NCBI GenBank assembly: GCA_944389455.1
Contig: CALXMK010000002.1
Span: 1-64,000 of the forward strand
Length of the DNA: 64,000 nt
DNA from: an uncultured Verrucomicrobiota bacterium
Lineage (GTDB): Bacteria; Verrucomicrobiota; Verrucomicrobiia; Limisphaerales; UBA1412
Direction: 5' to 3'
Each line of letters starts with the position of its first letter. The first letter of the stretch is position 1. This document shows, piece after piece, positions 3,464-43,067 of this stretch. Below the pieces are notes generated by a model, which saw only the letters and a program-made list of their open reading frames with translations, was not told the origin of the DNA and made no database searches. The position numbers were made by a program, and so were the translations under genes.

Positions 3464-4195
3464 ATGAGTAAAAGTTTTAAAGAAATGAGAGAATCGGTTA
3501 TTTTGATGGCTACTCATAATCGCCATAAGGTTGATGAGGTTAAAAAAGTTCTAAGTATGACTGCCAAAGGTGCAGGCAAGAATTATACAGTTGTTTCATT
3601 AGAGATCATTCCGCAGAAGATTCATTTGAAAGAGAATGGAGTTAGTTTTCGCGAAAATGCTCTTTCCAAAAATATTTCTTTATTCCAATGGCTTTATACC
3701 GAAGGAATAGAAAGCCTTGAGAAGATCTTTTCAGGGGGAAAGGGATGGATTTTATCCGATGATTCTGGATTAGAAGTAGATGTTCTGAATGGAGCTCCGG
3801 GAATCTATTCGGCAAGATATGCTGCAAAATCAAATTCTCAGGGGAATGCTCCAGATGAGGAAAATAATAGAAAACTGCTGGAAGAGTTGGTAAATATAAC
3901 TACACTGGAGAGCAGAAGGGGACAGTTTCGTTGTTTATTGGCATTAACTCCGATTGAAATAGAGGCTGATCAGAGCGATTTATTGGAGAAAACAGAGTTT
4001 TTTGAGGGAATTTGCCGAGGACATATAGCTTGTCAACCGGAAGGAGAAAATGGTTTTGGATATGATCCTCTTTTTATTCCAGAGGGATACAACAAATCTT
4101 TTGCTGTATTGGGTGAGAATATTAAGAACAAGATTAGTCATCGCTCTCGTGCCTTGGAGGAATTGGCTGATTTTCTTAAGAGATCAGAGAGATAG
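3464..4195 (+). CDS. rdgB: RdgB/HAM1 family non-canonical purine NTP pyrophosphatase
   Basis: House-cleaning enzyme that hydrolyses dITP, ITP and XTP to monophosphates. The family motifs are in order: ATHNRHK near residue 16, SDDSGLEV near 98, GFGYDPLF near 197 and SHRSRALEEL near 225. At 243 residues it is longer than the usual ~200, mainly through a longer N-terminus and an insert around residues 125-170. An internal ATG at residue 8 (MRESVILM) would give a more typical start, but the first ATG has GAGAGG upstream. It sits between recN and folE2 with short gaps, a probable operon. Confidence 0.9.
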   Translation: MSKSFKEMRESVILMATHNRHKVDEVKKVLSMTAKGAGKNYTVVSLEIIPQKIHLKENGVSFRENALSKNISLFQWLYTEGIESLEKIFSGGKGWILSDDSGLEVDVLNGAPGIYSARYAAKSNSQGNAPDEENNRKLLEELVNITTLESRRGQFRCLLALTPIEIEADQSDLLEKTEFFEGICRGHIACQPEGENGFGYDPLFIPEGYNKSFAVLGENIKNKISHRSRALEELADFLKRSER

Positions 4196-5010: not shown

Positions 5011-6114
5011 CTAGTCGGATAGTGCTACTGGAAAGTTTGAAGTGGTTAAAATCTGTTTTTTGTTGTCGGAATCTATGTAGATCAGACGAAGTTTCGCATC
5101 GTGTTTTTTCAGAAATTGAATTGCTTCTTCTGGTTCTAAAATACAGGCTAAAGTAGCTAAAGCGTCACTGTATGCGGCTTGAGAATGAATAACAGTGGCT
5201 CCAGATCGCCGGGTTAATCCCAATCCGGTTTCTATATCAATAATATGAGAGTATCGTTTGCCTTCGATTTCAACAAATTGATTAACATCGCCACTGGTAG
5301 AAATGGCAGCATCGGTTAAATAGATGATATAATTACCGACTTCTTCCGGAGATTGGGAAAAAGTCTCAATCTGAATTTTCCAACCCGGTTCTCCCGGAGG
5401 AGCTCCTATGACACGAATGTCCCCGCTGGCTGCAATAAAGGCATTTTCCACCCCGTGTTGACGGAGCAGTTCTATGGCTTTATCTGCGGCGAATCCTTTT
5501 CCAATTCCTCCTAAATCCAAACGAATTCCACTGCAGTTAAGAGTACCAGTTTGATGTTTGACGTCTAGTGTCAAATGTTCCCATCCGCTGAGAGATTGGG
5601 CGTGAAGAAGCTCTTCCTTAGTAGGAAGAATACCTGTTTTGCGGGTTTTCCTCCAAAGTTGGGTGAGATTGCCAATCGTTGCGTCAAAAGCTCCATTGCT
5701 GTCTTTAGCCAATTTTTGGGCAAGAGAAAGAACCTCAAAGAGATCATCGCTGAGAGGAACCGGAGTGCCGGCCGGAGAGTTCATAAAATGACTGAGTTCA
5801 CTTTCATCCGTGTAATCGCTCATTACACTGTTGAGTTCATCGATGCGGTTGAAAAGAGCAGAGGCTGCATTATCGGCAAGTTCCTGACTTTCATGGTATA
5901 TGATGAGCCGATAGATCATTCCCATGTGCGGTTCAGCATAATGGAAAGGGAAAAGTGATTTTTTTGCCTCCGTTGATAGAATTGAAGAAGAATCTAGCGG
6001 AGAGTAATGGTGGCAAGAAGAGAGGAAAGCTGGCAAGGAGAGTAAAAACGATAAAAAGAGAGAACTTCTCCGGTAAAAATAAGAGCGAAATAAATTAAAA
6101 ATAGATGAATTCAT
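5011..6114 (-). CDS. apbE: FAD:protein FMN transferase (ApbE-like lipoprotein)
   Basis: Transfers FMN from FAD to Thr/Ser of periplasmic flavoproteins such as RnfG or NqrB/C. The N-terminus is a long hydrophobic signal ending in a lipobox-like LPAFLSSC, so the mature protein is probably membrane-anchored outside the inner membrane. Core motifs include GGIGKGFAADKAIELL, SGDIRVIG (usually GGD) and the C-terminal AISTSGDVNQF and SHIIDIETG. No rnf or nqr target genes lie in the window. It is the last gene of the fmdB-LuxC-queD-apbE run, 23 bases after queD. Confidence 0.9.
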   Translation of the reverse strand: MNSSIFNLFRSYFYRRSSLFLSFLLSLPAFLSSCHHYSPLDSSSILSTEAKKSLFPFHYAEPHMGMIYRLIIYHESQELADNAASALFNRIDELNSVMSDYTDESELSHFMNSPAGTPVPLSDDLFEVLSLAQKLAKDSNGAFDATIGNLTQLWRKTRKTGILPTKEELLHAQSLSGWEHLTLDVKHQTGTLNCSGIRLDLGGIGKGFAADKAIELLRQHGVENAFIAASGDIRVIGAPPGEPGWKIQIETFSQSPEEVGNYIIYLTDAAISTSGDVNQFVEIEGKRYSHIIDIETGLGLTRRSGATVIHSQAAYSDALATLACILEPEEAIQFLKKHDAKLRLIYIDSDNKKQILTTSNFPVALSD

Positions 6115-40245: not shown

Positions 40246-41355
40246 TTAATTTTGGAAAAAAGTAGGAATAATTGCTATTGCCCAGAGCAGCAATGCATAA
40301 AAAGCAATATTTGCTAAAGCCAGTGGCATAAGCTTACGCCATCCTAAATCCATAAGCTGGTCAAAGCGGAAGCGAGGCAGCATCCATCGTATCCATACAA
40401 TGAGAAATACAATCATTATAGTTTTGGCCAAGAAAATGCAGATGTGAATTATTCCAATAAGCATCCCCATCCACGTGTTGGACGCAGGAGAGTTTAGCCA
40501 TGGAAGGGGAAGGGACCATCCACCCAGAAAAAGAGTTACAAAAATAGCTGACCCCATAATTACACTGGCATATTCAGCCATGAAAAACATGGCAAATTTC
40601 ATAGCTCCATATTCAGTGTTATATCCACCTGCTAATTCTTGTTCAGCCTCGGGAAGATCAAAGGGGACACGATTAGCTTCAGCTAGAGTGGCGATGAAAA
40701 AGAGCAGCGCCGAAAGTGGAGCCTGGATAATTCCCCAATGAAGAGGGGCAGAGGTTTGCCAAGCAATAATTGCATTCAAATTAGTGCTTCCCGCAAGCAT
40801 GAAAATAGGAATGATTGAAAGTCCCATTGTTCCTTCGTAGGAGATCATTTGTGCTCCAGCACGCATCCCTCCAATGATAGGGTATTTGGAGTTGGCAGCG
40901 TATCCAGCTAACAGAATACCATAGACGCTAATAGATGCTACGGCAAAAGTATAAAGTAATCCGACATTCAAGTCAGAAATTACCATTGATTGATTTCCGA
41001 TCTTAGAACCGAACGGAATTACAGCAATCGTCATTAGAGCTGGTCCAAGAATAATAACAGGGGCAATCCAATAGTAGAATTTATGTACACCGGCTGGAAT
41101 GAAATCTTCTTTCAAGAATGATTTTAAGCCATCACAAACAGGCTGAAGGAGACCCCACGGACCCGCTCGATTAGGTCCTAAGCGGTCTTGAATGAAAGAT
41201 GCTACTCTCCGTTCCAACACGACAGCATATGCTACCATTCCAAGTCCAATTCCGATGGCAGCCCCTATTTTAACAAGTGTAAAGAGAAACCACCACCAGA
41301 AGTCGGGAATATTGTTTAACCAATTGTTAAGGCTATAAAGTTGTTCAGTGATCAT
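40246..41355 (-). CDS. nuoH: NADH-quinone oxidoreductase subunit H
   Basis: Membrane subunit forming the quinone chamber (369 residues, eight or nine helices). Signature blocks are IQDRLGPNRAGPWGLLQP and the Glu-rich loop EAEQELAGGYNTEYG. Its ATG overlaps the nuoG stop by one base (TAATG). Confidence 0.95.
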   Translation of the reverse strand: MITEQLYSLNNWLNNIPDFWWWFLFTLVKIGAAIGIGLGMVAYAVVLERRVASFIQDRLGPNRAGPWGLLQPVCDGLKSFLKEDFIPAGVHKFYYWIAPVIILGPALMTIAVIPFGSKIGNQSMVISDLNVGLLYTFAVASISVYGILLAGYAANSKYPIIGGMRAGAQMISYEGTMGLSIIPIFMLAGSTNLNAIIAWQTSAPLHWGIIQAPLSALLFFIATLAEANRVPFDLPEAEQELAGGYNTEYGAMKFAMFFMAEYASVIMGSAIFVTLFLGGWSLPLPWLNSPASNTWMGMLIGIIHICIFLAKTIMIVFLIVWIRWMLPRFRFDQLMDLGWRKLMPLALANIAFYALLLWAIAIIPTFFQN

Positions 41356-43067
41356 TATTCAGTTGTATTTGCAGTTGAAACTATATCCATGCCGACAGTT
41401 CCCAGCAGTTCCCAAGTCATATTTTCAAAACCTGGGGTTGTTGCTGTTATTTTATTAAAAATACCTTCAGGTGTCAGAGGCCATGACTCCTGAGTTATTT
41501 TAGTTAGAATGTTTGCCAAAATCCAGTATTCAGGGCGTGCATCCCCAATAGGTGAAAAGGCTTTGCCAAAGCGTTGAACTCTGCCTTGAGCATTTATAAA
41601 TGTCCCCTGTTTTTCTGCAAAGCTTGCTCCTGGGAGAAGATATTGAGCTTCTTTTGAAGATGGATTGACTAGAATATCGCAGATTACAAATAGATCGAGA
41701 CGACCTAGAATACCAGGTGCAATTCCTGATTTAATGGGATCTTCACCAAAGACTAATAAATTGCGAATTTTACCTTCATCAATGTTTTTAGAAATTTCTG
41801 CAATTCTGTCGCCAGGGGTTTTGCTTGCTAATTTAAAGATCTGAATAGCTTTGCTATTAGGCGTTAAATCTTTGTTTAGAAGGAATGAATCTCCTTCTCC
41901 AAGATGAGAAATACTATCTGTAAAAGCGTCGAGTCGTTTAGCTAGTTTGCTGATAAGATAAATCTCTTCAGTACTTAATCTGGAAGAGACAAGAATAGCG
42001 GTTGTTTTGGGAGGAGTTTTTTCCAGAACACTGATAATCTTTTTAAGAGTAGAAAGCCAGTCAGATTCAACTTGTGTTCCATCTGTATTTTCAGCAAACA
42101 CATGAGTCAATCTATTTTGAGCGTTTACCCATTTATAATTTAGACGCCCATAGTCACACATCCAGACAGAGTTGACATTGTCGTTTTCACGAGGTTTAAG
42201 ACGATATATTTGTTTGTCTCTTGAATGAATAATAATGTTGCATCCGGTTGCACAACCCGGGCAGATGCTTTTGGTTTCGCTCAGAAACCAGGAGCGCATT
42301 CTAAAGCGGAAGTCACGCGAAGTTAGAGCTCCTACGGGACAAAGGTCAACTGCGTTAAGGGTGTAATTGTGTTCAAAGTCTGATCCAGGATAGTTCGAAA
42401 TTTGATTTAATCCTCCTCTATTAAGAATGCCTAAAGCAGGAATACCTATAATCTCTCGAGTGAATCGAACGCATCGGGTACAAAGTACACACCGCTCATT
42501 ATCAAGAATAATTTTAGAGCTGATTGCTCTCTTTTTAGGTTTTATAACTTTATCCTCTACGAAGCGAGAAGTTTCTTGTCCATATTGATGGACATATTCT
42601 TGCAATTTACAATCTCCAGCTTGATCACATATAGGGCAATCTAAAGGATGATTGATTAAGAGAAATTCTAAAACTGCTTGTCGGTATTGTTTAACAGCCT
42701 CTGTATTGGTGTAGATCTCGGTGGTCGCCGTATCATTAAAAAAACAAGCGATTGCTGGCCGAGGCATTTTACGAATAACAGGAGTTCCATCCGGATTGAG
42801 AATAGGTTTGCGATCTCGGTCTATAGCGGGAATTCCATATTCAATCAAACACATGCGGCAATTGCCTGATACAGGCAGGCGCGGATGATAACAAAAATGA
42901 GGAATATCCACTCCAGCTATAGAACATGCCTGGATAATTGTGGTGGGTTCCTGTTTCCCGGTGACAGAATGCGGTCTGGTTTTAGGAATAGATATCGCTT
43001 TCCCATCAATTTTGATGTCAATCATCGGGATTTCTTCTTTATTCTGAAGTTGATCTTTATTAATCAT
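41355..43067 (-). CDS. nuoG: NADH-quinone oxidoreductase subunit G (contains sequencing-adapter artefact)
   Basis: Peripheral-arm Fe-S subunit, 570 residues from the ATG at 43067 (AAGAGAA upstream; the longer ORF overlaps nuoF). Cluster ligands are CYHPRLPVSGNCRMC, then CPICDQAGDC, CVLCTRC and CPGCATGC. It is shorter than E. coli NuoG because the C-terminal molybdopterin-like part is reduced, as in many species. Residues right after the fourth 2Fe-2S cysteine (IAC) read FFNDTATTEIYT. That is the translation of a T run plus the Illumina P5 adapter, not a natural sequence. True residues there should resemble the TPV..G motif. Confidence 0.93.
   Translation of the reverse strand: MINKDQLQNKEEIPMIDIKIDGKAISIPKTRPHSVTGKQEPTTIIQACSIAGVDIPHFCYHPRLPVSGNCRMCLIEYGIPAIDRDRKPILNPDGTPVIRKMPRPAIACFFNDTATTEIYTNTEAVKQYRQAVLEFLLINHPLDCPICDQAGDCKLQEYVHQYGQETSRFVEDKVIKPKKRAISSKIILDNERCVLCTRCVRFTREIIGIPALGILNRGGLNQISNYPGSDFEHNYTLNAVDLCPVGALTSRDFRFRMRSWFLSETKSICPGCATGCNIIIHSRDKQIYRLKPRENDNVNSVWMCDYGRLNYKWVNAQNRLTHVFAENTDGTQVESDWLSTLKKIISVLEKTPPKTTAILVSSRLSTEEIYLISKLAKRLDAFTDSISHLGEGDSFLLNKDLTPNSKAIQIFKLASKTPGDRIAEISKNIDEGKIRNLLVFGEDPIKSGIAPGILGRLDLFVICDILVNPSSKEAQYLLPGASFAEKQGTFINAQGRVQRFGKAFSPIGDARPEYWILANILTKITQESWPLTPEGIFNKITATTPGFENMTWELLGTVGMDIVSTANTTE
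42709..42744 (-). other. Embedded Illumina P5 adapter plus T run (assembly artefact)
   Basis: Bases 42709-42737, read on the minus strand, are identical over 29 bases to the P5 flow-cell adapter (from AATGATACGG through CGACCACCGA to GATCTACAC). They are preceded on that strand by seven T (42738-42744). The coding frame continues on both sides, and the spacing from the cluster cysteine to the conserved KQ..R equals that of E. coli NuoG. Real bases have therefore been replaced rather than added to. Confidence 0.95.

Follow-up and report, generated by a model that had tools for sequence, protein, structure and literature searches.

How did an exact copy of a synthetic sequencing oligo come to stand inside a conserved gene without disturbing its reading frame? 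On the minus strand of the 64-kb window (the whole stretch of DNA analysed here) the Illumina P5 oligo, AATGATACGGCGACCACCGAGATCTACAC, is matched at all 29 of its 29 positions at 42709–42737. The match falls within nuoG (41355–43025, minus strand), the gene for NADH-quinone oxidoreductase subunit G, in a reading frame of 585 aa that is open throughout. It is near certain that the P5 sequence is an artefact of sequencing with no biological meaning; how it was written into the gene is addressed below.

The P5 match and the residues replaced in NuoG

When up to three mismatches are allowed, this is the single P5 match in the window, and none appeared in 100 shuffled sequences. P5 is present once in the whole genome (2.62 Mb), and a genome scan at the same threshold of three mismatches found no second copy of P5 and no copy of P7. 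The contig measures 200,554 bases, and the site, at 42709, is far from a contig end. Directly 3′ of P5 the sequence continues as CAATACAGAGGC of nuoG, with no index and no sequencing-primer site, and seven T residues stand immediately 5′ of it at 42738–42744; the initial annotation, which had described 42709–42744 as the 29-base P5 preceded by seven T, was thus correct. Its wider suspicion of the assembly or read set is too strong, as the genome has no further P5 or P7 match (at up to three mismatches) and a listed contamination of 0.11. It had also called the translated peptide a well-known contamination string. We did not find the peptide printed in the literature searched, which contained no account either of the peptide or of priming by grafted oligos; coverage of subscription papers was poor, and both may therefore have been described. 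Public contigs do, however, commonly carry the DNA itself.

The affected gene is a normal nuoG and lies in a nuo operon. Its product has the 2Fe-2S cysteine motif and HPLDCPIC, and is similar to NuoG over its whole length. Alignment with the NuoG proteins of relatives, a check already proposed in the initial annotation, gives IAC-ATPVSPGM-EIYTNT (or close to it) in the relatives and IAC-FFNDTATT-EIYTNT here, so that FFNDTATT stands where the native consensus is ATPVSPGM, a stretch conserved in nearly all of the relatives aligned. The conserved cysteine just ahead of it is intact. Length is conserved as had been claimed: there are no gaps over 191 residues relative to the nearest relative, and the interval from the conserved cysteine to HPLDCPIC is gap-free in the aligned relatives.

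The final 11 nt of P5 encode EIYT, and most relatives have EIYT or nearly so at this point. Because these codons are native-like, the overwritten part is confined to the 24 nt at 42720–42743 (minus strand). In-frame replacement of part of nuoG by P5 is therefore upheld as a gapless substitution of eight residues, rather than the roughly ten codons first estimated.

With the frame open and the protein full length, gene callers, completeness checks and routine annotation miss the artefact, as had been anticipated for automatic annotation. The earlier advice against using the NuoG sequence unaltered holds for the replaced residues; the protein is otherwise an ordinary NuoG, and the damage amounts to eight residues of one protein. 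These eight synthetic residues adjoin the cluster-binding cysteine. We suggest that 42720–42743 be masked and that 42709–42719 be handled as provisional.

The priming site and the T run

The 3′ end of P5, GAGATCTACAC, lies over the conserved EIYT codons at 42709–42719 (minus strand), which we presume to be the native priming site. EIYT is conserved in the NuoG family and fits GAGATCTACAC at the protein level. The 11-mer GAGATCTACAC has no other occurrence in the genome, and GATCTACAC has seven, the one in nuoG included. To judge from the sequence, this coincidence of the P5 3′ end with native-like codons is probably the reason that the oligo landed in nuoG.

Upstream of P5, we interpret the T run at 42738–42744 (minus strand) as the T linker that a grafted P5 would carry at its 5′ end. 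The seventh T (42744) is shared with TGT, the codon for the conserved Cys, whose third position it occupies, so a foreign origin is required for no more than six T. Among the genome contigs listed with enough upstream sequence, T runs before P5 cluster at 10–12, with a smaller group at 6–7. Two loci (L178 and L183) have about ten T with poly-C before them, and we read the poly-C as no-signal G calls that have been reverse-complemented. In L061 and L048 the dinucleotide AT separates the T run from P5 (TTTTTTATAATGATACGG).

Illumina grafted flow-cell oligos carry a T linker, whereas library PCR primers are not known to. A T run of about 6–7 or 10 therefore points to a surface-grafted flow-cell oligo rather than to a library PCR primer, and if grafted oligos carry the linker and PCR primers do not, the oligo copied in nuoG would be the grafted one. 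A linker length of T6–T7 for the grafted oligo is one that we infer from the contigs alone; surface-bound primers of the P5/P7 type with a 5′ spacer of ten T have been described (PMC11123353).

P5 and P7 in other public contigs

A scan of genome contigs yielded at least 120 P5 stretches. Most of these lie near a contig end, have a T run before them, and are followed by the TruSeq primer or by an index plus Nextera sequence. In a minority—for example L059, L061, L099, L120, L124, L130 and the nuoG locus itself—P5 passes straight into genomic sequence, and this class occurs in contigs named in SPAdes style (NODE) as well as in k-mer style (k127, k141, k87). P7 behaves similarly in four IMG/VR loci (L280, L286, L313 and L334), where 10–13 T and P7 are followed by genomic sequence without an index. 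In L313 an otherwise open frame is interrupted by a stop codon that the P7 artefact introduces.

Where homologues could be aligned, the register is kept. The IMG/VR case L165/L196 could be compared with its very close relatives. Where these have the native AGGTTTGAGGATTTTCCTATCGTCTTTGCAGGCGATCTACACGCACAT it reads AGGTTTTTTTTTTAATGATACGGCGACCACCGAGATCTACACGCACAT, with equal length and zero indels, and the best offset is 0 in 71 of 71 scored relatives. The L196 relatives have a native match of 9 nt, the same 9-mer GATCTACAC, beneath the P5 3′ end. The XerD of L124 is gapless against solved XerD across the overwritten stretch, the aminotransferase of L061 is gapless against 3ezs, and the uracil permease of L130 is gapless over the P5 site. 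The L124 protein, a XerD-like tyrosine recombinase from a Rhodobacteraceae MAG, reads QVL-FFFNDTATT-EIYTHV, and P5 is at base 5662 when the locus is read as its reverse complement. This register comparison covers internal loci other than L099, L104, L162, L167 and L334; for L163 the search for relatives returned L163 only. Judged by reading frame, the same longest frame lies on both sides of the oligo in seven loci (nuoG, L061, L130, L163, L196, L280 and L313), the remaining loci being ambiguous by the open-frame test alone.

In L120 the native CGAGATCTACACCGACAACCCG and TTTTTT-P5-CGACAACCCG stand side by side with NNNNN between them, and the native copy carries CGAGATCTACACC, a match to the oligo 3′ end at the DNA level. 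This locus belongs to the isolate Protaetiibacter mangrovi 10F1B-8-1 (NZ_JANTHX010000007.1, contig range 64001–72000), with P5 at locus base 3633.

Further searches defined where the class is not seen. Seven T plus P5 had no match in complete E. coli genomes, and its matches were one plasmid and 19 phage records; none of the five of these records examined is length-preserving, four having an index or primer after P5 and one having ambiguous bases. A plasmid titled 'complete sequence' (L157; CP058799.1, 15071–15906) and two phages titled 'complete genome' (L158, MK170160.1; L159, PQ462667.1) contain whole Illumina adapters at interior positions. Among viral contigs there was no P5 with a XerC/D-type continuation (NCAYGT), and P5 followed by A, considered as a candidate for the overwrite class, proved in all cases to be ordinary Nextera read-through. 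Across 388 genomes of the phylum, four P5 copies were found in two genomes beyond the genome studied here; considered likewise, all four were rejected, lying near contig ends with TruSeq primer sequence after them.

Proposed mechanism and comparison with known systems

The nuoG locus presents an exact P5, a T run, a gapless substitution and a 3′ anchor that is native-like, a pattern that recurs in unrelated P5 and P7 contigs. We consider the likely origin to be grafted P5 that primed internally while clusters were being amplified, so that the clusters became mixed. The native EIYT codons of nuoG would match the P5 3′ end, being identical or nearly identical to GAGATCTACAC; during cluster amplification, surface-grafted P5 with its 5′ T linker would anneal to this internal site and be extended, producing truncated strands that share clusters with full-length strands. 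A read entering from the downstream side of nuoG would then show native sequence, the P5 complement and the T-linker complement in turn, and once the truncated template ended the full-length strands would again give native sequence. As each cycle extends every strand by one base, the return would be in exact register, with no base gained or lost. Retention of the artefact version by the assembler would leave the 24-nt in-frame substitution, and the on-surface priming, the mixed-cluster steps and the reason that this version won the assembly are all part of what we infer. Mixed-cluster reads would explain, at the level of the single read, why there is a T run, a native 3′ anchor and no index, and why the length has not changed; no polishing step would be required. 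The proposal leaves unexplained the absence of a T run in L059 and the AT that follows T10 in L061.

A polishing step would preserve the exact length equally well, if misprimed reads ending in P5 plus poly-A had been mapped gaplessly and the consensus written over the native bases. We regard this as unlikely, since the same class is present in SPAdes (NODE) and k127/k141/k87-type contigs, for which polishing is unusual, and since a de Bruijn graph requires the left junction to be present in the reads. More improbable still is mispriming by P5 in the library PCR, after which an assembler or gap filler would have joined the native left flank by chance to a fragment ending in P5. L120, with its N gap, does resemble two contigs scaffolded over such an end, but a chance join would not keep length, as is kept in nuoG, L196, L061, L124 and L130, and would not supply the T run, which library primers are not known to carry. 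That the organism's NuoG truly has FFNDTATT is highly improbable in spite of the open frame and the conserved flanking residues, given that a synthetic oligo is matched over its full length behind a T run, with no such match expected by chance, and given the native stretch in nearly all relatives.

We lean towards the view that P5 and P7 overwrite genes in register and without frameshift wherever about 9 or more bases match the oligo 3′ end, with EIYT codons in conserved genes (nuoG, xerD) as recurrent hot spots, so that public genomes would contain false in-frame substitutions that go largely unnoticed. A simple rule could filter this broader class, which spans P5 and P7 in microbial and viral contigs: an oligo with a T run, no index behind it, and a position inside a gene.

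Adapter read-through at contig ends, of the TruSeq or Nextera type, shares with nuoG a P5 with a preceding T run. It differs in that the nuoG P5 has no index or primer after it, lies inside a 200 kb contig, has native flanks on both sides and leaves the length unchanged; ordinary adapter contamination was rejected on these grounds. The features of an in-register overwrite found in nuoG are the T run 5′ of the oligo, native sequence on both sides and no change of length relative to homologues. Six loci (L061, L124, L130, L165, L280 and L286) likewise have a T run, the oligo and then genomic sequence without an index, in register with homologues where this is testable, although their T runs are mostly 10 or more whereas that of nuoG is 7. 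Compared with NuoG elsewhere, gene and operon are ordinary, and the protein differs by the eight residues overwritten by the oligo.
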